Of a DNA stretch of 64,000 nt, positions 21,671 through 62,216 are shown one piece after another. Source of the stretch: Mesostigma viride (taxonomy: Eukaryota > Streptophyta > Mesostigmatophyceae > Mesostigmatales > Mesostigmataceae); assembly GCA_009746045.1 (NCBI GenBank), contig RPFO01000299.1, forward strand, positions 2,456,350 to 2,520,349. The letters run 5' to 3'. The position numbers and the translations under genes were made by a program. Position 1 is the first letter of the stretch; every line of letters starts with the position of its first letter. A model generated the notes under the pieces. It worked only from the letters and a program-made list of their open reading frames with translations, was not told the origin of the DNA and searched no databases.

Positions 21671-22315
21671 ATTTAGATGAACGCGGAACAGTGAGTTTCT
21701 GGTCTTCCCAAGATGTGATGAATGGAGCCATGGTTTCAACCAGCGGCTTTTAACCTTTACCACAGTTGCCTCACTACCCTGTGGTCACTAGCCTGAGGCG
21801 GCAGTACCCACGGACGGTGTTGGGAAAAAGACGCTTGGCCACTGCTGTGTCCGAGCCTTTCTAGGTCTCACCATTGCTGCCAGGCCTTGCACGCCTTGGC
21901 AGGTCCGCCACTGTCAATTTCCTTGGTTGCATTAATCCAGGACGTCTGTCCTTCCATGAATGACAGTAACGCTCTGGATTTATCCGTCATGACAAGTACC
22001 CGTCCATCCCAGGCCTGCAGGACTGCCAGTCCTGAAGTCCTGTGACATTCTTGGTACCATCAACCAATATTGACCACAGTACCTCCTAGTGACAGTCGGT
22101 CCTGTGACACGTAACTTGTGATGGTTCACCCAACACTGCCACGTGCCCTGTCCCTCACGTGTCCTTAGTCCTGGTACTGCTGTAGCGTCCGGCGGCATTA
22201 CTTCGGGACTTGATAACTCTCAAGTTCCTTGTCCAAATGAGGCGTTTAGCACGGCGTTGGAAAGGCCACTTCAAGTATGATATGCTTAGCATATTGCATC
22301 ACCAATATGCTAACT
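21671..22315 (-). repeat. LTR (3' LTR of the minus-strand Copia-type element)
   Basis: Matches 27,237-27,880 with a handful of differences, for example one extra A near 21,829. In element orientation it runs AGTTAGC...CATCTAAAT. Confidence 0.95.
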
Positions 22316-22627: not shown

Positions 22628-22638
22628 CGTATTACAGT
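22628..22638 (-). other. 11-nt complement of the primer-binding site
   Basis: In element orientation ACTGTAATACG, exactly complementary to the first 11 nt after the 5' LTR (27,226-27,236). The other Copia-type element has the same arrangement at 51,468-51,478. Confidence 0.7.
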
Positions 22639-22664
22639 GAGTTCCTGGTCTTCCCAGTTATCAC

Positions 22665-22689
22665 TGGCGCCCGTTTCATGGCGCCCGCC
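22665..22689 (-). promoter_or_regulatory. Twin GGGCGCC motif in 3' noncoding region
   Basis: In element orientation CGGGCGCCATGAAACGGGCG and CC follow each other, that is two GGGCGCC copies 8 nt apart. A near-identical pair is at 51,411-51,434 in the other Copia-type element, although the surrounding sequence has diverged. Confidence 0.6.
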
Positions 22690-22830: not shown

Positions 22831-22847
22831 TAGGGAATCGAACCCTA
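22831..22847 (-). ncRNA. tRNA T-arm-like hairpin in 3' noncoding region
   Basis: In element orientation TAGGG-TTCGATT-CCCTA: a 5-bp stem and a 7-nt TTCGATT loop, including the B-box word GGTTCGATTCC. I could not build an acceptor stem or anticodon arm around it, so it is not called a tRNA gene. Confidence 0.55.
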
Positions 22848-27225: not shown

Positions 27226-27236
27226 ACTGTAATACG
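27226..27236 (-). other. Primer-binding site CGTATTACAGT
   Basis: The first 11 nt after the 5' LTR in element orientation. It does not begin TGG, so it does not match a tRNA 3' CCA end. The first nine bases are shared with the other Copia-type element. Confidence 0.65.
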
Positions 27237-27880
27237 ATTTAGATGAACGCGGATCAGTGAGTTTCTGGTCTTCCCAAGATGTGATGAATGGAGCCATGGT
27301 TTCAACCAGCGGCTTTTAACCTTTACCACAGTTGCCTCACTACCCTGTGGTCACTAGCCTGAGGCGGCAGTACCCACGGACGGTGTTGGGAAAAGACGCT
27401 TGGCCACTGCTGTGTCCGAGCCTTTCTAGGTCTCACCATTGCTGCCAGGCCTTGCACGCCTTGGCAGGTCCGCCACTGTCAATTTCCTTGGTTGCATCAA
27501 TCCAGGACGTCTGTCCTTCCATGAATGACAGTAACGCTCTGGATTTATCCGTCATGACAAGTACCCGTCCATCCCAGGCCTGCAGGACTGCCAGTCCTGA
27601 AGTCCTGTGACATTCTTGGTACCATCAACCAATATTGACCACAGTACCTCCTAGTGACAGTCGGTCCTGTGACACGTAACTTGTGATGGTTCACCCAACA
27701 CTGCCACGTGCCCTGTCCCTCACGTGTCCTTAGTCCTGGTACTGCTGTAGCGTCCGGCGGCATTACTTCGGGACTTGATAACTCTCAAGTTCCTTGTCCA
27801 AATGAGGCGTTTAGCACGGCGTTGGAAAGGCCACTTCAAGTATGATATGCTTAGCATATTGCATCACCAATATGCTAACT
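27237..27880 (-). repeat. LTR (5' LTR of the minus-strand Copia-type element)
   Basis: Direct copy of 21,671-22,315. The GACGA duplication follows at 27,881-27,885. Confidence 0.95.
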
Positions 27881-27939
27881 GACGACGATGTGTGTGTTAG
27901 TGTGTGCGCATGTGTTAGCGTGCATGTGCGCACGTGGGT

Positions 27940-28425
27940 GTGTGCATGTGTGCATGTGTGCATGTGTGCGTGTGTGCGTGTGTGCGTGTGTGCATGTGTG
28001 CATGTGTGCGTGTGTGCGTGTGTGCGTGTGTGCGTGTGTGCATGTGTGCGTGTGTGCGTGTGTGCGTGTGTGCATGTGTGCGTGTGTGCGTGTGTGCATG
28101 TGTGCGTGTGTGCGTGTGTGCGTGTGTGCGTGTGTGCGTGTGTGCGTGTGTGCGTGTGTGCGTGTGTGCGTGTGTGCGTGTGTGCGTGTGTGCGTGTGTG
28201 CGTGTGTGCGTGTGTGCGTGTGTGCGTGTGTGCGTGTGTGCGTGTGTGCGTGTGTGCGTGTGTGCGTGTGTGCGTGTGTGCGTGTGTGCGTGTGTGCGTG
28301 TGTGCGTGTGTGCGTGTGTGCGTGTGTGCGTGTGTGCGTGTGTGCGTGTGTGTGTGTGTGCGTGTGTGCGTGTGTGCATGCGTGCATGTGTGCATGTGTG
28401 TATGTGTGTGCGTGTGTGCATGTGT
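27940..28425. repeat. (TGTGCG)n hexamer array, copy B
   Basis: Same unit and flanks as 218-806, about 100 bp shorter, with more TGTGCA variants at the left. Confidence 0.96.
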
Positions 28426-29572
28426 GTGTGAACATTTGTGTGCATGTGTAGTATGTGGGCGTGTGTGTGTGAACATTTGTGTGCATGTGCAGTATGTGGG
28501 CGTGTGTGTGTGTGTGCATGTGTGTGTGCTGGGGGGTAGGATGGATAGGGAAAACAAAGAGTGAAAAATGCAAGGTGTGGGGGAGTTCAATGTTTCACCT
28601 CGCGGCAAAAGTCATTGTGCCTGCCGCGTGTATTGACAAGCAGCTGTGGGCACGGTTGCAGCAAGTGAGTACACGCCAAGGGCCTAGACGGTTCATGCAC
28701 TAGCACACAGCCAGTGGGACGAAACATCTGCACATATAACTTGGGTTCATCAATTCTGCACATTACCGGCTTGGGTTCATCAACTGAATTCTGCACCTTA
28801 CACTTGCATGGCTCATGGTTTCAATCGCTGCTCAATTGACAGAAAATGCACAGGCCATCAACATTCAGATATGTTAATCCTGAAAAGTGACCTTCCACAC
28901 CAGGAGAATGAAGGTCGATGCTGCTTTGACGCATGAGCCTAATCCACGTGCTCTCGGAGGTCTCCACCTCGGCAGGAGCACCTGCAGGCGTCGTGGCTCG
29001 CTTACCTCAAGCAATATGCGCATGCTGGAAGCTACCGGGGTCTATGCAGAGTTACATTATCGGCCCGGACAAAGCACATCTTAAACCTTTCTCGGCAGCG
29101 AAGCTCTGAGCAGCGCTATATTGTCGTGGCCGGACTTCAATGTCGCCATTAAAATGTCAAAAGCTGTTTGATTCGTCCAAGGAAAATGCGTGCATGGTAG
29201 ACAGATAATAAGATGCCCGGGCGTATAGACATGACAAGCAACTGCTTAGATGGCGCTCCTCGCGTTTTCCCTCGACTCAGTTCGTAACGGCGCCTAATCC
29301 AATGCAGCAAATGCACATGGGTGTGACCAGAATACAGAGCCTAGTGCACGCGGCAATATTGTTTGGTCTGTCGCACAATTGCTGTTGTGTTTGCAATTAT
29401 TCTGCTCGCTCAGATGCAGGATTAACTTCGGCTTGATTTCTTAATTACCCTCGTGTGCAGGTCATACGGCTGACATTCCTCTAGCTTTCGTACAGTAGCC
29501 ATGGCTGAATTTTGCTTCCAGGTATGTACTGGACAATTAGTGAACACTGAACACGGCCTGCACCTCGACCCC

Positions 29573-44003: not shown

Positions 44004-47000
44004 CTTCTCTTCACGGATCTGCCACCAGGTCGGCAGGATGGTGTCACCCTTGAGCATCTGCACGTCCACCCCCCCGAATTTCTTCCAATCCATTGCCCAC
44101 TCCTCCAGCTTCTCCGCGGCCACGGTCTTCGTGACTTCCTGCTCCTTCCCTCCCCGCGCAACGACCCTTAGCTTTTCCGCCTTCATGAAACCGTTCAGCA
44201 TTGCCTGGTACCACACAGATCTTTGGTCCACCGTCATATTTGGGGCGACCAGTTCGAAATTCACCGATTTGATGAGTGTGGTAAAGTGGTTCCCGTCCAG
44301 CACGAGAAAGCCGCAAATGGCTGGCGGCGACTGTGGCTTCGGCTGGATTGGAACCATCTCCCAGGCGGACTTGCACAAACTGTCCAAAAGCGCGGCCTTT
44401 CTCACGTCCACGGGCTTAAGATCGTCCAGCATATCGGCCGGTCCTGTCAGAACCTTGGTGGAAGCAGCTTCGGCCATTCCCTTGGCCGAGCTCGTTCGCA
44501 GGTAGATATCAATCTCTTTGTCAGTCATTGCGCGAGCGTAGCCAGCCTTCATTGTCCGTGCCCCCCCCATCTCCCCGAAGAGTTGCGCGACCTGACGCTG
44601 GGTGCCTTCCTTTTTCATCCAGTCATGAAAAGTGTTGGGGCACCGGTCAGCCAAAAACTGGAACGAGTACCGCCACACAGGAATCACAGTTAACGTAAAG
44701 GATTTACGTTAGATGAATAGAGATTGTTACGCTCTTTCCAACGGCACCTTGAACGCCTCATTTGGTTAAGGAACGTAAAAGTTATGACGTTTCCTAGGCT
44801 GTGCCGACAGTACCCGGCGCGCCACTGTGGGCGCGTACGGACACAGGATGTACAAGTGTCACTTTGATAGTCCGCAGGACGTTGACAGGACTTGTACAGG
44901 ACTTGATGGTCAATTGATAGGTAGGCGCACTGTAGCGCGCCAGGACCTATGAGACAGTTGATGCTGACTAGTGTACGGATAGGTCCACAGGACTAGCCGT
45001 ATGGACAATTGATAGATCTGCGCGCCAAAGGCGTGCCAGAGTCTGTGTAATCAATTGATTGACAGTTCAGCTGTGACAGTGCAGCTGAATACTTGGACGC
45101 GTCCCTAGCAAGCTATATGTGTGACTTGGTCGCACCGGGACGCTAGCTCTTGCGTGCACGCTCTCTTGGCATAACGACCCTGTCGTCTGTGCTACGTGCA
45201 GTCTCGGACTTGACGTGACTTACGTCTGTGTTTGCTCATTATAATAAAGGCAACTTTCCTGCAAGAGCCATGGATTCCCTCGGTGGTAAACTCTCATTCA
45301 ACTCGTATTACAATCTTCGTACCAAGAAAAATGCCGGACTCGATGGAGTTCCGCATTCCGAGGGATTCTGAAATTTTGGGCAGTCCAGCGGACATCGCCG
45401 AATCTCCGGCTGGTCCTTCGACGACTCCTGTTCGTGAAGATCGTCCGGTTCTTAATCCGGCGTGGCAGCGTGTTGTTGACCAGGCGGTAGCGTCCAGTGC
45501 GGAGCTACGCGCTCAGCAGCAGGCACTGCTGCAAAACCTACGACTGCCGCCCCCGCCTCCGCAACCTTCGATTGTTTCGGGGTTTCGCGATTACCTTGAT
45601 TCCATTCGAGCTTTGCTCGCGGACTTCGAGGTCCATACCCGGGCGGGGTTGCAAGCGCCCAGCGCGGTTGCCGAGGTCTCTGAGGAGATCGACAACGCGG
45701 TTTCATCGCTTACAGGTTACCAGCGCAATCTCGCTAACTGGCTGTCGGTTCGTTCGGGCGTCATTCCGACGATTACGACCAACCTGTTTCAAGACCTTGC
45801 GATTCTGCAGTTGCTGTCGCGAGGCTTCCGGACGCGTGAGCGGCAATTGCTGCTCAATCTTGTCGCGTTCTTGTCTGCATTGCGAGAGTGGGCGCCGGAC
45901 GGGTGGGATTTTCTAACGATTCTTACCAACCCGCTCCGCATCGTCACCCGCCGCCGTCGTCGCCGCATTGATCCGGTGACGGGACGTCGGTTGGACCCCA
46001 TCGTCATCGAAACTCCGGTGACGATTGAGGTTGGGCAAGGCCAGGAGGCGCCTGCGCCTGTCGCCAACGATCCAATTTACGACTACGACTACTGCGATTT
46101 TCGTGGTCTCGACTGAATTCGGCATGGTGGCGCGGTCGGCACCGGGGCAGGCGGCTTTTTGACAGATTGTACATATCTACCTGTCTTTTGTTTTCCAGCT
46201 GCTTAGCTCAGGGCCATACACAGCTAGTGTAGTTTACCATGGCTGAGGGACGCCGTAGCAAGGGCCTAGCCAGTGGGAATAATAATGGGGGTGCTGGTAG
46301 CGGGACCGCTCACGTAGATGACGTGGGGGTTACCGGCGAGATTACCAATGTGCCTATTAATAATAATACACATGCTGTCTCTGGATATGATCTCACCACA
46401 CAGGGTCTCCTTATTGTTAATCAGCTGCAACCTGTCACTTCAGACTCAAAGCCAAAGCAGGCAGAGGAGTTTGTGGAAGGACTAGAGGGGTTTCCAAGCT
46501 TGTACGGGGTACAAACTATTATCAGATCTGGATAGGCAGCCAGACTTTTGGCAAGTGCACAGATCAGATTAAAGACCTCACTAGAGAGTGCAAGAAGGCC
46601 AACAAGGCCTGGGCAGTCTACGTGGCAGAGCTGAGGGAGCTGCTAGAGGATCAACGGAAGAAAGTGGGGATCCATTGGCAGGATAAATACCAAGGGTGGG
46701 AGGTTAAGGGAGACCTTATCCAGAACTTCCTCAATTATTGTAAAATGGTTGAGGAGGGCAGGGCTCACGGCTTCAATGTCGCTGACAGCATAGCCCTGAC
46801 AAACTGGCTCAAGGTTTCTGGGCTGGACAAGGCAACACGTGGCTCTTTAAAGGTCATGTGTGCCCCACACTCTACCCTCAAGGCCTACAAGGTCATAATC
46901 AAACAAGCACTCGAGGCAGAGGAGCTGTTTGAGGGTGGAATGCCAGCTGTGAAGGCTACCCACGCAGGTGGGCGTGCCCAGGGGGGCTCCAAGACGTCTG

Positions 47001-50000
47001 AGGCTGACAGAAGCCAAGGAGGACGTGGGGGCAACCACAACAAGCGGAAGGCCAACCATTCACCCGACCCTGACGGGCAATCACATGCCAAGTCGGTGTT
47101 CAGGAGGGTGGGTGGTAAGCCCAGGCAGGGTAACGCGCCTGACAACGGGGGAGGAGGCCAGGGCAAGTCAAAGATCCAGTGCTACCTGTGCAAGGGGTGG
47201 GGGCACATCAAGAAGGAGTGTCCCAGCTTCAAGAAGACCCAGGGCCAGGGCAGCAACAAGAAAAACAACAACAAGAACAACAACAAGTCCCAGGCAGGCC
47301 AGCCTTCAAAGGGCAGTCAGCAAGAAGACAACAAGGAGCAGTGACTGTCTGAGGCAACCCCTACACACCTTAATTCACCCAAGGGGGAGGCCAGGTGCTC
47401 CAATGCAGATTTTATATCTGGGCAACAAGAGGGTGATCTCCAGGTTCATGGTGGCCCCAGGTCACCTGGAGAGGTACAGGTTCCTATGAAGACGTCCTTG
47501 ACAGCTGGTGCAGCTGTAAGAATGTCTGACCCCATGCATCCTTGTGCTGGGCACGAGGGTGGACCTCTCATTTTGAGAGAAACCAATGTACAACCACAGA
47601 GGGGTGTGAAGGCCTCTGGTGGTATGCATGTGGTCCCTGCTGGCGGTCCAGGTGTTGGGCATGAGCAGGGTGACTCAGACTCTGAGTCAGAACAGGATGG
47701 AAGACAGCATGGTGATGCTGGACAACCTGACAGCACAGTCCTGACTGTGCCAGGGACTGCTTCCTCTGTGTACCAGGAGTTGGGTGCCCGAATCCACAAC
47801 ATGTTTGGGCATGCCACTTCTCTGTCAAACAACTTTGCCTTCCGTATGGGCAGGGCACCCCTTCTTAAGGCGTGTCAGCAAGCTGCCTCACGGTGTAAGT
47901 GCCAGTTGTCCTCCAACAAGCCCAGGAAATCACATGCCAAAGCTATACCTCAGAGCATTGGTGATCTGCAGTGTGATATCCAACACATCAGGGGCATGCA
48001 ACTGTTGGTGTGCGTGGACAGGTACACAAAATACAAGGTGCTGGAGCATTTACCTTCTATGAAGAACAGGTACTTGCTGGCTGCCCTGCAGAATGTAAGA
48101 GCCAAGTTTCCTACCACAAGGATCCAGGTGGACATGCAGTTTCAGCATCTCAAGGGTGATCCCACCCTTCCTGAGTTGCTGGTTACACCTAGGGAGGCTC
48201 ATGGGCAGCAGGGTGCTATAGAGAGGGCAATCCAGGAGGTCAAGAAATTGATTATCTCTGAAGACTGGGTACCCTTATCTGCACCTGCACTTGTCAGGAG
48301 TGCATGGCTGAGGAACGTGGAGCAGCAGCTGAACAGCAGGGTTAACTTCTACTATGATGGAGTTGCTGTCAGCCCAATGGGTCTATATCATGGCCTGTGC
48401 CCACCACATGTGCTGGAGGGCTGGAAACATGCTGCACATGTCACCTTTGCCAAGCTGAGGGAGAAGGACCGGGGTTGGAAGATGCTGGAGCCACAAGTGG
48501 GTCAGAAGGTCCTAGCTTGGAAGGAACCTAGCCTTTATGGCAAACGTGGTAGCTGGAGTCCTGGGGTGGTTACCCAGGTTGATGAAGCTAGCCACGCATG
48601 CTTGGTCAGCATGGAGGACGAACCAAAGCATGTGCACCGGCTGAGTTGGTCATATGTCAAGCCTAACCTGATGAATGAGGGCAGTCAGGCACAAGGCTCA
48701 CAGGACCTGCAGGATTTTCAGGTCCCAAGTGACATCACTGATGCAACGACCACATCTGTTGCAGGGGAATCTGTCAGCCCTGGCCAGGTTGCAGAGGTAC
48801 CTGTTGAACAGGCTGCAAGGTCAACAGCTGGGGAGTCAACTGTCAAGCCCAAGGCTCTAACCAAGCCCAGGGGGACAAGTTTGGCTGGATTAATTGGGGC
48901 TCTGCAAAGGGCCAAGAAGCAGCCCAAGGTAGCCAAGCTCAGGTGGCATGGCAATCTGGGGCTGGACACTGCCTTAGAGGTAGACACTAATTCTCAGGTT
49001 TCCATCATTGGGACCAGAGCTGCAGCAGGGTACAGCATGACTGAACCCAGCTATCAGTTTGTGTCTGACTTCAGTGGCGGGGTACACGTGAAGGTACTGG
49101 GTGAGGTATCCATTCCTATCCTTGGACAGGACACTGCTTTTTGTGTCTTGGAGGGCTATCAGGGACCTGCTCTTCTGGGGCAGAATTTCCTATGCCAGGA
49201 TGGGGTAGTGATCACGTCCTCTCTCCTGACTAAGGAAGGGGCTGGTCAGGTCCCACTGATTAATTTCAGGACCACTCACCTATCACGTGCAGTAACCAGG
49301 ACGGTTAAGCGTGTGCAAGTGTGCCAGGGGCAGGAGCCCTTGGTTGATGACCTCATATTGCCAGCTGCTAGTCATCCAAGCAGTTTGGGCATTGGTCCTC
49401 ACTCACTTGCTGGACACAGCCCTATAAACTACCAAGGCCTGGTGAAGCTCATGTCCTCTCCCATTATGTGTCCCCAGGTCACACTGGGTCTGATTAAATC
49501 TGGGGAGGACTGGATCTCCAAGAAATGCGTGGAACCTGTCAATGACCTGCCTCCTGCACGACGTCTACTCAAGCTCAAGTTTGTCATCAAGATGAAGGAG
49601 GTGGACGGGGTCAAGGTACCACACGTCAGGCCAGTACTGAATGAGTTCAAGGGTACTGGTGAGTGCACCGCTGAGGAGTTGTATACCCCTGGCATGCTGC
49701 ATGACACTTGGAGGCTGCTGCTGTGTGTATTTCTAGGCCTTCTCAACAAGGGCTTGGACTATGGCTCAGTGGTGGTAGACTTCAAGAGGGCATTTCTGGA
49801 GGGGGATGCAGATGTGGCACAGGAAAAGTGGGAGGGCAAGACGCCTTTCTATGTCAGGGTGCCTGCTGTATGGAAAAGGGACATTCACACTGAGTTCCTT
49901 AAAATCCTCAAGGGCCTGGAGGGCCTGAGGTCAAGTCCAATAATCTGGAGGGAGACTCTCAACCGTTTCCTGAAGGAGCATTGCAACTTGAAGGTTTCTC

Positions 50001-53000
50001 CTGTAGACCCCTGTCTGTTTCTGGGGCAATGGGAAGGCCTACCAGTGTATGCTTCGCTGCACGGGGATGACCTACATCTGATAGCTCCCACGTCGTGGCT
50101 TAAGGAGCTGATCTCCATCATTAAGTCCAAGTTTCCTCTGGGTAGGGAGCAATGGCAGGTGGAGAATGAGCCTCTCCTGTTTGTGGGCATGGAGGCCACA
50201 CTGGTGAAGAAGGGGGGGAGTGGCGTATGCTGCTGGTGGGGGGCAACGATTATCAAGAGACCCTCATTAGCAAGCTTCCTCCAGTCATCACACAGGCACT
50301 GTGTCCCATGGTGAGGGGCATGGTTGCTTGGGTGGCAGGCATTTCCAGGCCAGACCTTATGGTCATAGCCAGGTTGCCTGATGACATGCTGACAGAGCTA
50401 GGGTCTGCCAAGGTGGCTGATCAGGTCAGGGCTTCGTCTGGCATTCTGTTGTCTGCAGTGGATTTATCACAACCCATTTGCATGGAGCTGTATGTGGATA
50501 GCTCAATGGACAGCAGGCAGGTCTCCAAGGTCAGGGGCAGGGCTGCAGGGCTCTTTGTGCTCAGACAGGAAGGCCTGGGGAGTTTGGTGAGCTGGTTCAG
50601 TCGCCTGCACAAACGGGTGGCTGTCAGTAGTGATGTGGCAGAATGCAGGGCTATTTGTGAAGGCATTCACACAAGCCTTTATCTGAAGGAGTTGCTTCAT
50701 CAGATGACTTCTAACACTCCTTGGCCACTTCAGGTTACCACTCTTCTAAAAACAGACTCCATGGGGATGGTGCAGTTTGTGCACAGGCAGATGGCCAGAA
50801 GTAGGGACTTGGATTATCTCCTTCTTAAGGAATTGTCCTCCTTGGCCAATATTGAGCATATCCCTGGGGTTGACAATCCTGCTGATGCTTTGACCAAGCT
50901 AGTGCAGAAGGCAGCAGTGCAATACAAGGTTCTTCAGTCTCTGATGGACCCATCTCAGCAAGCTGTCTAAGCTGGTGCCTGGTTATAGGGCATTGGAGAG
51001 CAGATTGTGTGGTAGTGTCAGCATTGTGACTGGCATAATACCTGTATTTTAGTCTGTACTAAGGCTCATGGACCATGGTACACTCACTCTGATTTTAATC
51101 AGGATACAGCCAGGTTTTGGCTGGGGTTCATGCTGTTGACTACACAAGGTTGACAGGTCCATTACAGACCATGTATTCTATTTAAAAAGAAATGTATATT
51201 TGTACATACCTCTCACAATGGTCTGGGAACCTTTATTCTGGGGTTTATAGGGCGGGGTTCGATTCCCTGGTATTATGTTTCTACAAGCTGGCCTGCTCAG
51301 GTGTTTTACCTGTTCAGACTTCCCTAGTTCCCCAGGGCAGGATTTAATTGTTGCCTATGTGTTTCATTTTGTCATTTGTTTGCTGTGGCAATTTATCATC
51401 TGACAAGTAGACGGGCGCCATAAGACGGGCGCCAATACTAACCTGTTGAGAGTATGACGGGGAAACTATTGTAATACGTCTTACTTTGTCAAGTGGTATT
51501 TCAATTGTCATGGATTTATTGTGCTTATATTAGATATGTACTGGGTTTTATGGGATTAGTATCTGGGATTAATGTAACTCACCGCCAGAAGGTCATTGTA
51601 CTGGAGGCTCTACCGAGGTGATGGGATTAATTCCTGGAGAAGACCTCATAGAATTAACCTGTATGTATTTAATTTTGTGTGTTTCTAATATCTGGTGGTA
51701 CTCTGTAATGCCACTTCCATAGGTTTTTATCCATTTCTCATGAAATGGTTTTCCCTGTGGCAGATCTGTTTCTTTTCCAGTTCCTTAAAAGAAAGGGCTG
51801 GGGGAATGGCATTGGCCATTAAAGACATCTGTTCAAGCTTCAAGCTGGAGTGAAGGACATTTCAAGCTACTTCAAGGGTCCCTGGCAGGGGATGTGATCC
51901 CTAAAGAAAAGAAGGGATTGGAGTTAACGTAAAGGATTTACGTTAGATGGATAGAGATTGTTACGCTCTTTCCAACGGCACCTTGAACGCCTCATTTGGT
52001 TAAGGAACGTAAAAGTTATGACGTTTCCTAGGCTGTGCCGACAGTACCCGGCGCGCCACTGTGGGCGCGTACGGACACAGGATGTACAAGTGTCACTTTG
52101 ATAGTCCGCAGGACGTTGACAGGACTTGTACAGGACTTGATGGTCAATTGATAGGTAGGCGCACTGTAGCGCGCCAGGACCTATGAGACAATTGATGCTG
52201 ACTAGTGTACGGATAGGTCCACAGGACTAGCCGTATGGACAATTGATAGATCTGCGCGCCAAAGGCGTGCCAGAGTCTGTGTAATCAATTGATTGACAGT
52301 TCAGCTGTGACAGTGCAGCTGAATACTTGGACGCGTCCCTAGCAAGCTATATGTGTGACTTGGTCGCACCGGGACGCTAGCTCTTGCGTGCACGCTCTCT
52401 TGGCATAACGACCCTGTCGTCTGTGCTACGTGCAGTCTCGGACTTGACGTGACTTACGTCTGTGTTTGCTCATTATAATAAAGGCAACTTTCCTGCAAGA
52501 GCCATGGATTCCCTCGGTGGTAAACTCTCATTCAACTATCACCAGCTTGTCGTGGCCGTAGTCGGACTCCGAGTTTGCAAAAATGGTGGCGTTCTGCTCG
52601 GCTCTCGACAGATGCAAGTCTCGTGCGAGGAGCTTCTGAGGCCCAACAAACAGGTTCCTTGTCCACACCCGATTTCGATGCACCAAGGCTTTGGACATCT
52701 CATCGAGGTCCCGAGGCTGAACGGCAAGCTCCTGCCGCAACCGTTTGCCCTTCGCGATCTCATCGTTCACATCCAGGATGTCATCATCATCCTGCGACAC
52801 CGGGGACTTCTCCCATTTCTCAAGCAGAGACACGGGAGCATCCGCAACCTCCACCTCCTTTCCTTTCCCCTTTCCCTTCAGCGCCTTCCCCTTGTAGGTC
52901 GCAAGTGCTTCGGAGAGTCCCTTCTGGTGTTCGTCGACGGCAGCAGTCCACGTACTAGCTATTTCCATGTTCTCGCGGCGCGGGTGCTGGTCGAGCCTGA

Positions 53001-58027: not shown

Positions 58028-59086
58028 ATGCCGAAGCCCGGGCGGAAGCCAGGTTCGACAGGTGCTGGGAAGCAATTACCGAAAGCTAATCCCGAGGTGC
58101 CGACAGCTACTAAACAGACGGGAAAGGGCCGACTAGGCTGGCCGACGCAGAAGAAAAGGCTCCATCAGGAGCTCTCCACTTGCTCGGGCCTGCCTGAAGT
58201 GTGCGCTGCCTTTGAGGCGGTCCTCGGGACCGACTGGGTAACTACTGTCAGCCGGTGGTCTGCGGCCCAGCTGGAGTCCGTCGTTGGACTGCTGGTCGAC
58301 CACGTGGACGGGCCTGAAATTCTGGCAGCAGCGGACCCAAACGAAGCGCTAGTGGCAGCCCTCCAAAGCGCCCGGGACTTGGCGGACTCGGACGAAGAGG
58401 AGATGCAGCCACCACGCCGGCCCACGAAAGGGGCGAAAAAGGGGACGAAAAAAGTCGGAAGCCCAGCCCCGAGCAAGGGAAAGGCCGCGGGGGATGTGAG
58501 GGAGCAGCTCTTGGAGCTGGCGGCTATTATTGGCAAGCAGGGGCAGGCGGGCAAAGAAGAGGAGGAGGAGGAGGAGTCCGAGGAAGAGGATTTCCTGACG
58601 AAATTGAAGGATGCGCTGGCCGGGGCAGATGGGGCTTCCAGGAAGCCGAAAAAGACCAAAGGGGTGACGCTGCCCACTCGAGCACAAGTGGTGAATTGGA
58701 GGGTGCAAGAGAGAGTGCTCCCCGAGGTGCTCGAGGATGCCAACGACAATGGAGGGGGGATAAAGAGTTGGATCATGGCTACTCGCCAAGGGGGGTGGAG
58801 GAACCAGGAAAGCAGGAAGGTGGTCATGAACATCGCCCTGGCCATGGACACACTCTTCAAGGAGTTGGGGCCGGCAGCCGGGGAGTTGGCTGGGGTAGAG
58901 TATCTCATGAGGGTGGTGGCAGCCATGCTCCTAGTGGAGAGCCAGGGGTCAGGAGGGTGGAAGGTGGCTGGCCACCTCCTTGCTCTCAAGGAAGATGCCT
59001 CCTTGGTGAGCAACCCGGCCATGAAGATGGCCCTGCAAAGCGCCACGATGATGGAGAAGCTGGGCAAGGCCCAGCAAACCAAGTAA
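58028..59086 (+). CDS. ORF1 (gag-like) of the DIRS/Ngaro-like element
   Basis: 352 residues. Basic N-terminus (MPKPGRKPGSTGAGKQ), a helical segment (PEVCAAFEAVLGTDWVTTVS), a basic patch, an acidic tract (KEEEEEEESEEEDFL), then a conserved-looking helical C-terminus (IKSWIMATRQGGWRNQESRK, GVEYLMRVVAAMLLVES). No zinc knuckle. Position and composition fit a nucleocapsid-type protein; the role is inferred from position only. Confidence 0.75.
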   Translation: MPKPGRKPGSTGAGKQLPKANPEVPTATKQTGKGRLGWPTQKKRLHQELSTCSGLPEVCAAFEAVLGTDWVTTVSRWSAAQLESVVGLLVDHVDGPEILAAADPNEALVAALQSARDLADSDEEEMQPPRRPTKGAKKGTKKVGSPAPSKGKAAGDVREQLLELAAIIGKQGQAGKEEEEEEESEEEDFLTKLKDALAGADGASRKPKKTKGVTLPTRAQVVNWRVQERVLPEVLEDANDNGGGIKSWIMATRQGGWRNQESRKVVMNIALAMDTLFKELGPAAGELAGVEYLMRVVAAMLLVESQGSGGWKVAGHLLALKEDASLVSNPAMKMALQSATMMEKLGKAQQTK

Positions 59087-59133
59087 ACACCGAAAGGGTA
59101 AACCGCTCCCCCTTCCCACTGCCTCTTCCTACA

Positions 59134-61300
59134 ATGCCTCTAAGCACTACGTGGGGGAGAGTGAGGTCAGCACGCAGACGCCAGCGTGCAACTCGCCGCC
59201 GCCGGACCTTCACTCTACAACACAAGGTGATTACGTGGTTGAATTGGCTATGGCACGGGGGGGCAGACCCTCCGCCTAAATCTGGAGGCGCGTGCTCCAG
59301 AGGAACGGCGGAGGCCCTGAAAAGGGTCAAGAAGCACTGCGAGTGGTACAGTCGCCGCGTAACCGGCGTTGCGACAGGCCCCGCAGAAGGAAGTGATCTA
59401 ATCTATGGGAAATGTAATAAGTATGAACAACTTGTGGCGGAGCGGGTGAGTCTGCCGAAGCGCGAGGTGGCAGGAAAGGCGAAGCTGCTGGATTTGCTGG
59501 CGCTACGACCTAGTTGGCGAGAGGTGTACGCGAGCGAAGCCAACTGCATCAAGCCGGAGGTGGCTGCCAGTGCGAGGTATTGGAATGTACCTGCCCCCAG
59601 CCGAGGGTGCACCATGGCGGAGTGGGGCAAGTTGATGGGGAGGGCAGCGGACGTGGGGATGGTGGAGTTCCGAGAGACGCGGCCAAAGTGGGTAGACGGA
59701 TGTTTTGGGGTGGCCAAAGGAGTGGGGGAGTTAAGGCTCATTGTGAATAAGAAGTTGGGGAACGCACTGTGGGTGGACCCCCCTAAGACGGTGTTACCCC
59801 ACCTGGGCATATACTCGGAGGTCTATATCAAGGGTCGGTGCTACACGGCCAAGAGCGATCTGGTCTCGTATTACTATACCATCCAAGTGCCGGAGTGGTG
59901 GTGGGATTATCAAGGGCTACCTGATGTGTGGTCCACCGATGTCGGGCTGCCGGGGCGGCGGAGGAGGGTGTGGCCAGTGCTGAAAGTGCTGGCCATGGGG
60001 CACTCCCACGCTGTAGCGCTAGGGGAAGCCATCCATGAGATGGTCCTCTATGCCACGGGCGCTTTGGATCCTAGACGGCAGGTGAACCGCCTCACAAGTG
60101 TAGGGGAGCTGACCGTGCTTCGGAATGCATGGGGTAACCCAACCGCCCTAGCCATCGAGTACAAGGAGGAGAGCACGAGGGAGATGCAAATCGACCTTGA
60201 GGACCCCCCTGCCCCTATGGTATCCATCACTATTGATGACCTGGTGGTCAGCAATGGGCGCACGTGCGAGGCGGTGAATCGCTTAATCGCGAGTGCTATT
60301 GAAGACGAAGACGGGTACGCGCCTAACAACCTTGTGCCCTCCAAGGACAAGACGATCATGGCTAGCCCGGAGGGGGAGGACGAGCTAGAAGCTCTGGGTG
60401 TTGTTCACCGGCGGGATGGGGTGTTGGAGCCGACAGCTAAGCAGCTCACCCTTGTGGTTGCGCACACTCGTGTACTCCTCGAGAGGGGACGCGCTACCGC
60501 TGAGGCGCTGGCGGCCGTCGTGGGCCGGTGGGTGTGGCTGCAGATGCTCAGCCGCACTTGCTTGTCCATATGGCAGCAGAGTTTTAAGTTCATCAACCTC
60601 AAGGGGTGGGGCCAGCGAACGCGACCTTTGTGGCAAGGTGTGCGCGATGAGCTCGAGTGTGCCATGGCGTTGGCCCCCATGCTCCGTGTGGACCGGGGGG
60701 CTGCCCTGGCTCCGGTGGTGGTGGCCTCGGATGCGTCTAGTTTTGGGCAGGGGGTTGTCTACGCTGAGATGGCCCCAGCTGAGGTGACGGAATTAGCTCG
60801 GGCCCGGGAGGTGCGGGGTTACCCAACCCTCCTCACCCCAGGTGAGGCCATGTATGCCGGGCCTAGACCCTTGACCAAGGCCGCGGAAAAAGCCATCATC
60901 CACGGGCGATGGCGCGTCGGGATCAAGAGTCGCTGGCGCGATTCGACCATGCACATCAACGAGAAGGAAGTGCGGGCCGCTGTGAAGGGGGTGGAGCGCT
61001 CGGCCCGGAACCTCGGAACATGGGGTAAGCGGGTGGTGAGGTTAGTGGACTCCACTGCCGCTTTGGGCTGCTTGGCTAAAGGGCGTTCCTCTTCTTACCG
61101 GTTAAACAAGCAATGCCGCCGGTTGTGCGCTCTTACGTTGGTCACCGGCAGCCGCTCACAATGGGTCTGGACGCCAAGTGAGCTTCAGCCTGCGGATGGG
61201 CCTTCGCGGGGGCTTTCCATGGCTGCCTCGGTGGCCGGGTGGGTCCGCGATTTGACTCGCGAGGGTGTTCATCCCAATCCCGGGCCTCGGCTTGGCGCTA
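59134..61300 (+). CDS. Reverse transcriptase and RNase H of the DIRS/Ngaro-like element
   Basis: Start MPLSTTWGRVRS at 59,134, 47 bp after ORF1. RT motifs: ELRLIVNKKLGN, AKSDLVSYYYTIQVP (motif A Asp), LKVLAMGHSHAVALGE (motif B) and VSITIDDLVVSN (catalytic IDD). RNase H: VVASDASSFGQG (Asp), HINEKEVRAAVKG (Glu), RLVDSTAALGCLAKG (Asp) and TPSELQPADGPSR (Asp). The same frame runs on into the recombinase N-terminal domain. All expected catalytic residues are present. Confidence 0.92.
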
Positions 61301-62216
61301 GCTACTTGACCCTTCTTGAGGGCAAGGTGAAGCCGGCTACTTTGATGGTTTACCATCGGGGTCTTAGGTCCTTTTTCGCATGGTGGGCGAGCCGGCGGGG
61401 TCGGGTTGGCAGCTTGTTGCGCGGCTTGACGATAGAGGAATACTATTGCGAGTATGTCGCTTGGGCGCACTCACGGTGTTACAGCCGCCAGTTGTGTGTC
61501 AATGCGCTTATGGGCCTGAATTTGTACTTCCCCCGGGAGGTGCGGGATTGGGCCTTGGCACGAAGTGTTTTGGCTGGCTGGCGCACGTTGGCACCCCCTC
61601 GTGCCCCCCCCCCATTCCATGGGAGGCTGCGTTTGCGCTTGCTTGTACTATGGTGCTCCAGCGGCAGCCTCGTGCGGCTATGATGGTCATCGTTATTTTC
61701 CAACAATACCTGCGGGTATCGGAGGCGCTCAACCTGTTGGTCGGCCATGTGCGCTTGCAGCCTGATGTTCGGTTGCGGGGTTCGCAGCGGGGCGCCTTGT
61801 TGTTGATGTCAGCTAAGACGGCTAAGGGGGAGGTGCAGTCTGTGGTGATCGAGGATGTCATGACTGAGACCCTCTTGCGGGCTTGTATGCGTGGCAAGGC
61901 GGCCTGGGAGCGGGTGTTCCCTTACGATTATGCCCAGTTCAGCCGGGTTTGGCATCAGGCCACGCAAGCTTTGGGGGTCGACACGGTGTTTACCATTCAC
62001 GGGCTGCGGCATGGGGGGGCTACCTATGATTTTTTGCGGCAGCGCAGCATGGCTGATATTCAGCATCGGGGTCGCTGGCGCAGCAGCAAAACTGTCGCCC
62101 ACTATGTGGGATTGCACCGGAGCTTGGCCCTCACCCTTCCTGACGCCCTGGTTCGGGCTATCGCCGCCTGCCCCCCGCGCATTTGGCGGAGCGTCTTTTC
62201 TCTGCCTTCCTCTTAA
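61301..62216 (+). CDS. Tyrosine recombinase of the DIRS/Ngaro-like element
   Basis: The SAM-like N-terminal domain continues the RT frame (TLMVYHRGLRSFFAWWAS, YYCEYVAWAHSRCYSRQLC). At a C10 run near 61,605-61,614 the coding signal moves to the next frame (WEAAFALACTMVLQRQ) and reaches the catalytic part. Arg is in QQYLRVSEALNLLV, the His-x-x-Arg box is HGLRHGGAT, then HRGRWRSSKTVAHYV with the Tyr nucleophile; stop at 62,216. The R-HxxR-Y set is complete. The frame change may be an assembly indel, a disabling mutation or frameshifting. Confidence 0.9.

Follow-up and report, generated by a model that had tools for sequence, protein, structure and literature searches.

A candidate self-priming arrangement in Copia-type elements of Mesostigma viride: complementarity between the primer-binding position and the 3′ region

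In most retroviruses and long terminal repeat (LTR) elements a tRNA or a tRNA half primes minus-strand DNA, and the internal +1 position, directly after the 5′ LTR, is where that DNA begins. What primes an element whose +1 site is not of the usual TGG type is the question raised by two Copia-type elements, A (+ strand) and B (− strand), in a 64,000-nucleotide stretch of the Mesostigma viride genome (assembly GCA_009746045.1, 440 Mb in 2243 contigs; contig RPFO01000299.1, positions 2,456,350–2,520,349; hereafter the window, with coordinates counted from its first base). "Copia-type" denotes the best match only, the best Pfam match of the A coding frame being RVT_2 at 26.9 bits (E = 4.4e-6), under the curated cut-off of 31.6. 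A preliminary description of the window had reported that in each element the 11 nucleotides following the 5′ LTR are complementary to an 11-mer in the 3′ region, that the one base differing between the elements (A versus G) is matched by a change in the partner (T versus C), and that neither primer-binding site (PBS) begins with TGG. The letters and coordinates of both pairs proved correct to the base, the compensation is real, and no TGG-type PBS is present at the LTR edge of A or B. Comparison with a third family, C, adds two further compensated positions and likewise shows no TGG-type site. We propose, at a probability of roughly 0.55, that these elements carry their own minus-strand primer sequence, a segment of the 3′ region supplying the primer (self-priming).

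Complementary 11-mers at the LTR edge and in the 3′ region

Because the LTRs within each element are near-identical and the 5-bp target duplications are perfect, the edges of A and B can be placed exactly. Self-BLAST and reading of the flanks put the 5′ LTR of element A (AGTTAACG...TTCAACT) at 44688–45303 (+) and its 3′ LTR at 51922–52537 (+), with the target duplication ATCAC at 44683–44687 and 52538–52542; the two LTRs are 616 bp each with 2 mismatches between them, and a polypurine-type tract, AAAGAAAAGAAGGGATTGG, lies upstream of the 3′ LTR. Element B has its 5′ LTR (AGTTAGC...TCTAAAT) at 27237–27880 (−) and its 3′ LTR at 21671–22315 (−), flanked by the target duplication TCGTC. LTR ends are generally TG..CA; those of A and B start with AGTTA instead of TG.

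In element A the primer-binding position, beginning at internal base +1, reads CGTATTACAAT (45304–45314, +), and its 3′ partner is ATTGTAATACG (51468–51478, +). The corresponding pair in element B is CGTATTACAGT, again from internal base +1 (27226–27236, −), and ACTGTAATACG (22628–22638, −). Each of the four 11-mers occurs once on the + strand of the window. The two strands of the pair are separated by 6.2 kb in A and 4.6 kb in B, and the partner lies 443 nt (A) or 312 nt (B) from the 3′ LTR.

By simple expectation, the first 11 nt would find an exact complement within the last 1000 nt at a frequency of 2.4e-4 per element. When the last 1000 nt were resampled with first-order composition, such a complement appeared in 0 of 20,000 sequences for A and 1 of 20,000 for B. 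Among 2000 successive 11-mers taken from the internal 5′ end and compared with the last 1000 nt, the one at offset 0 was alone in having a complement in B; in A, offsets 0 and 865 had one.

Other genomic copies of A and B were too similar to one another to add information. The A sequence from +1 was identical over 30 nt in the 8 of 38 loci where the LTR edge was found, loci that had been selected as best matches of a query covering this same +1 stretch. The partner was identical in 28 of 28 loci (of the same 38) where the preceding GGCGCC motif was found; three loci were set aside (L011 for a run of N, L012 and L023 because they were interrupted before the site). Similarly, the B partner region was identical over 90 nt in 30 of 30 loci, these being the best matches to this very stretch (best 30 of 441 first-look candidates). 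Since the scored copies are near identical, the copy-level tests within A and B are uninformative.

A third family and the covariation of the pair

Family C was reached through an ENA protein, P0001. It gave 38 scored matches with 63–64% amino acid identity to P0001, all with 1196-aa open frames (the best 38 of 10,018 first-look candidates). A and B share about 49% amino acid identity over the integrase, A and P0001 47%, and C and P0001 63%. In the C copy on contig C1690 the LTR edges read AGTTAACG...CGTTAACT, the target duplication is CGTTG and the internal region starts with CAAATTACAAGCAGTC. All three families thus have 5-bp target duplications and LTR ends of the form AGTT..AACT or AGTT..AAAT; a 5-bp duplication is also described for related Copia elements (PMC10886601). 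The internal region of family C starts with CAAATTACAA, and its 10-nt complement, TTGTAATTTG, lies 170 nt before the 3′ LTR. TTGTAATTTG is the only complement of at least 8 nt to the C1690 internal edge in the stretch examined before the 3′ LTR.

Small windows from five further C copies contained the same first ten PBS bases in three cases (L075, L077 and L079) and the same 3′ partner in four (L074, L076, L078 and L080); L073 missed the PBS, and L081/L082, from a copy with a 1199-aa frame, held neither motif. Position 11 is G in C1690 and C in L077 and L079, so that it varies exactly where the pairing stops, the first ten bases being unchanged. In one more copy, on contig C1107 (L069/L070), no PBS was found, and this copy is interrupted after L070 base 339. 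Beside it (L070 about 1030–1110) stands ...TTTCTGACA|TGGTATCGAGTAGC followed by an open frame, which looks like the classical TGG-type PBS of another Copia element at a putative LTR edge.

Protein searches of public sets returned P0001 as the only relative, with none in phage records or viral contigs. An RVT_2 profile search gave at least 150 matches at 148–178 bits, far above the score of A, and a short reverse transcriptase (RT) search reached no fourth family among the best 150 of 4907 candidates, all of them at 81–82% identity.

Across the three families, 7 of the 11 pairs are invariant, 3 (positions 2, 3 and 10) have changed on both sides, none has changed on one side only, and position 11 is unpaired in C. 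In register, 97% of the cells pair, as against 27–42% when the strands are slid by 1–3. In all three families the first paired base is internal base +1, and the pairing does not extend into the LTR. The covariation that the preliminary description had offered as a check is seen between families, in the three double changes. The predicted duplexes are more stable within a family (−10.9, −13.2 and −7.9 kcal/mol for A, B and C) than in the cross-family combinations tried (−9.9 for A with the B partner, −4.0 for A with the C partner and −4.5 for C with the A partner).

A laxer control allowed any piece of the first 15 nt to match anywhere in 3618 (A), 2921 (B) or 827 (C) nt, with 300 shuffles each. 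The longest match in the shuffles averaged 7.2, 7.0 and 6.4 nt, with maxima of 12, 13 and 9, as compared with the observed 11, 11 and 10. By this measure an 11-mer match in A and B is rare, yet not unseen. The covariation statistic alone is also modest, because it is drawn from three sequences only. On the sequences compared here, the weight of the case lies in the joint facts: the exact +1 position, the stop at the LTR edge and the lack of any half-changed pair.

Anatomy of the 3′ site and possible routes of priming

The partner is accompanied by a predicted hairpin in all three families. In A, the best fold of a 56-nt piece contains a possible hairpin at 51433–51471 (+) whose 3′ strand, TATTG, shares bases with the 5′ part of the partner. 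The B hairpin, (C)AGTGA...TCACT(G) at 22635–22666 (−), overlaps the partner in the same manner and is contained in the best fold of each of the four pieces tried. The stems that would use the 5′ part of the partner are CAATA/TATTG in A, AGTGA/TCACT in B and ACAA/TTGT with GAG/CTC in C, the last present in the best fold of both pieces tried; beyond the stem they would leave a tail of TAATACG (A and B) or AATTTG (C). The 3′ pieces fold better than shuffled sequences (z −2.06 to −3.20). A further hairpin, GGCGCC-N8-GGCGCC, is common to A (51414–51433, +) and B (22666–22685, −); C has a single GGCGCC, further upstream.

All three families also share, in their 3′ regions, a conserved hairpin that resembles a tRNA T-arm and contains the B-box-like motif GGGTTCGATTCCCT; its distance upstream of the partner is 198 nt in A, 192 nt in B and 360 nt in C. 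It reads CGGGG-TTCGATT-CCCTG in A (51253–51269, +) and TAGGG-TTCGATT-CCCTA in B (22831–22847, −), and lies at positions 271–287 of L072 in C. When the 3′ regions of A and B are aligned, the islands of identity amid diverged sequence are GGGTTCGATTCCCT, the GGCGCC-N8-GGCGCC hairpin and the partner. Rfam tRNA-like matches reach only 13–17 bits, below gathering: narrow scans gave 16.0 (A), 16.7 (B) and 15.1 (C, T-arm only) bits for mascRNA-menRNA, with a gathering threshold of 42.5, and 14.5, 14.3 and 13.4 bits for tRNA-Sec, with a threshold of 47; a wide scan of L072 listed neither. Because these scores fall so far below gathering, we claim a T-arm-like hairpin and not a tRNA, and a full tRNA-like or mascRNA-like structure around the motif was rejected. 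The strand following the T-arm has a distant complement of 9 bp in A and 8 bp in B, which we treated as chance, C having none over 6.

Element B has one more repeat at this site. A stretch near the end of its U5, TGGGAAGACCAGAAACTCACTG (27276–27255, −), recurs with one change as TGGGAAGACCAGGAACTCACTG (22656–22635, −), directly before and into the 3′ partner; by eye, no counterpart was seen in A or C.

How could such a site prime? In the mechanism that we propose, the tail of the 3′-region hairpin (...TAATACG in A and B, ...AATTTG in C) would pair with the first 10–11 nt after the 5′ LTR, and an RNA cut directly 3′ of the tail, at 51478 in A, would yield a 3′-OH that reverse transcriptase extends into U5. 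Because a template that runs full length beyond the cut is also required, the cut RNA probably serves as primer donor for a second RNA in the particle. By the standard LTR cycle, plus-strand strong-stop DNA would copy the primer, so that every round would renew the PBS from the 3′ partner; this would account for the continued match between the two copies. The B copy in the window, the one B copy searched for RT, matches the A integrase and the last residues of the A RNase H frame, and no RT segment was matched in it at E limits of 1e-2 and 1e-3; it looks like a deletion derivative that depends on borrowed enzymes. Since this copy keeps both sites without an RT match, the sites appear to act in cis, which points to a role in the RNA.

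A bolder version of self-priming is possible, and we put it forward tentatively. These elements may form a Copia class that makes its own primer, in which the 3′-region hairpin, possibly excised or cut as a small RNA downstream of the T-arm mimic, would act in trans and prime a second RNA at its PBS. With each round rewriting the PBS from an internal primer gene, such a lineage would be freed from host tRNA and free to drift in its primer sequence.

Several points weigh against self-priming. The support is a comparison of sequences from three families in one genome, and since these families are related by descent, the shared +1 position does not represent three independent events. The observed covariation score was reached by 20 of 500 shuffles, the duplex energies are modest, and the change at position 10 could equally be held by the local hairpin. 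For C, a second complement is possible in the 3.4 kb of coding part outside the comparison. The overlapping hairpin of A appears only in the 56-nt fold and not in the best folds of 71-, 83- and 96-nt pieces, and the sequence around the PBS gives no better folds than its shuffled versions (z 0.75 and 0.42). Finally, the cleavage is one that we infer, and a cut at 51478 would part the 3′ LTR from the body of the element, so that the model has to invoke either two RNAs or a switch.

The alternative that survives best, though we consider it unlikely, is that the pair only circularises the RNA, as CYC5/CYC3 does in Ty1, aiding first strand transfer or serving as an RNA-integrity check, and that some other RNA primes and displaces the 3′ strand. 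Complementarity between the two ends with compensated changes is what cyclisation requires, and no RNA cut would be needed. Ty1, also of Copia type and with complementarity between leader and 3′ region, offers a precedent in which CYC5:CYC3 promotes reverse transcription; however, CYC5 (nt 155–168) lies downstream of, and separate from, a normal tRNA-iMet PBS (nt 95–104) (PMC5454406). Here the pairing strand coincides with the PBS position in all three families, where it would block a primer, and by eye no other candidate primer site lies beside the LTR. Self-priming is favoured over cyclisation alone, as over a host RNA or no function, because a 3′ strand placed at +1 either is the primer or blocks one.

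It is less probable still that a host RNA primes, either a tRNA-Tyr fragment or a precursor that still has its intron, in which the anticodon loop YUGUAA would run on into intron bases; the 3′ copy would then be a captured piece of that RNA. The complement of the PBS does contain YUGUAA in all three families, which we take to fit U33-GUA-A37 of tRNA-Tyr; the four bases at the 3′ end of the primer (UACG for A and B, UUUG for C) are not expected in the anticodon arm of mature tRNA-Tyr, leaving this option weak for the mature tRNA. Half-tRNA priming in Drosophila copia, Ty5 and fungal Copia elements likewise involves a PBS at the LTR edge that does not start with TGG. Anticodon-loop priming, with tRNA-Tyr included, is described for the fungal elements (PMC10886601), whereas the present elements also have a compensated copy of the site in their own sequence. 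It can be argued, moreover, that three PBS versions would need three host RNAs and that nothing would make the copy in the element change along with those RNAs. No tRNA gene was found in the window or in the 77 sequences fetched. A pair without function, arising by chance or as an old inverted duplication inherited by three related families in which 7 of 11 pairs never vary, is very improbable given the chance expectation per element, the islands of identity in otherwise diverged 3′ regions and the three double changes with no half-changed pair.

Of the four priming options raised in the preliminary description, self-priming fits best, and its closest relatives are Tf1 and sushi, of the Gypsy type. 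These also lack a tRNA PBS, their own RNA complements the PBS, and the primer runs into RNA that must be cut; the Tf1 primer is the first 11 nt of its RNA, matching the 10–11 nt found here (PMC7175516). The Tf1 partner lies at the 5′ end of the RNA, whereas that of A, B and C is in the 3′ region of Copia-type elements. The classical Tf1 layout was rejected, as the longest LTR complement of the first 15 nt is only 7, 6 and 7 nt in A, B and C (shuffle means 6.1–6.2). Our best reading of the sequences is an arrangement that is Tf1-like in principle but takes its primer from the 3′ region instead of the 5′ end of the RNA.

The bipartite PBS of Ty3, another option of the preliminary description, resembles the present case in that both RNA ends take part in initiation; it does not fit, since its two parts pair with one tRNA (PMC5371799) and the segments described here complement each other. 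The fungal GalEa elements are closer in kind, being of Copia type without a tRNA PBS and with a conserved self-complementary sequence at the LTR edge; in this Conserved Hairpin Site two complementary 9-mers follow the LTR with 12–41 bp between them, the first being palindromic, and the GalEa primer is not known (PMC5445492). In A and B, by contrast, the partner is kilobases away, and the first strand is not palindromic. A near hairpin of the GalEa type was rejected, the complement of the first 9 nt having at least 4 (A), 3 (B) and 3 (C) mismatches everywhere in internal bases 9–69.

Among the exceptions to tRNA priming named in the works cited, Tf1 uses the RNA 5′ end; fungal GalEa (PMC5445492) and Tcn2-5, for which a novel priming is proposed (PMC7175516), have no known primer. 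In a shallow literature search, mainly of open-access work, we recognised no description of a Copia element whose PBS is complementary to its own 3′ region. If our reading is right, Copia elements whose internal primer covaries with the PBS would represent one more way to start minus-strand DNA, and would show how independence from tRNA can be gained while the PBS stays faithful. The arrangement also suggests a search rule for elements filed as lacking a PBS, namely to compare their first ten internal bases with the last kilobase.

Coding frames and neighbouring sequences

The frame of element A at 47486–50314 (+) encodes an integrase, a retropepsin-like stretch and the Copia-type RT. The integrase core match, upstream of the RT, is weak (E 0.032). 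The retropepsin-like stretch (DTNSQVSIIG ... LLGQNFL; 48976–49200, +), which presumably belongs to that family and gave no Pfam match, lies between integrase and RT, and P0001 has the same order; the usual Copia order places the protease before the integrase. The RT active-site region reads LHGDD in both A and P0001, Copia elements usually having YVDD. At 50215–50320 (+) the RT and RNase H frames stand in different registers relative to P0001. An open frame of 989 aa is common to 52 of 54 scored A copies, and the register change may be a fixed shift or a frameshift site.

Directly beside the 5′ LTR of B, a long tandem repeat with 8-bp spacing occupies 27778–28600, and similar repeat-coded frames are found at 18–995. 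Long frames at 58696–62216 (+) resemble, by eye, a DIRS/tyrosine-recombinase-type element.

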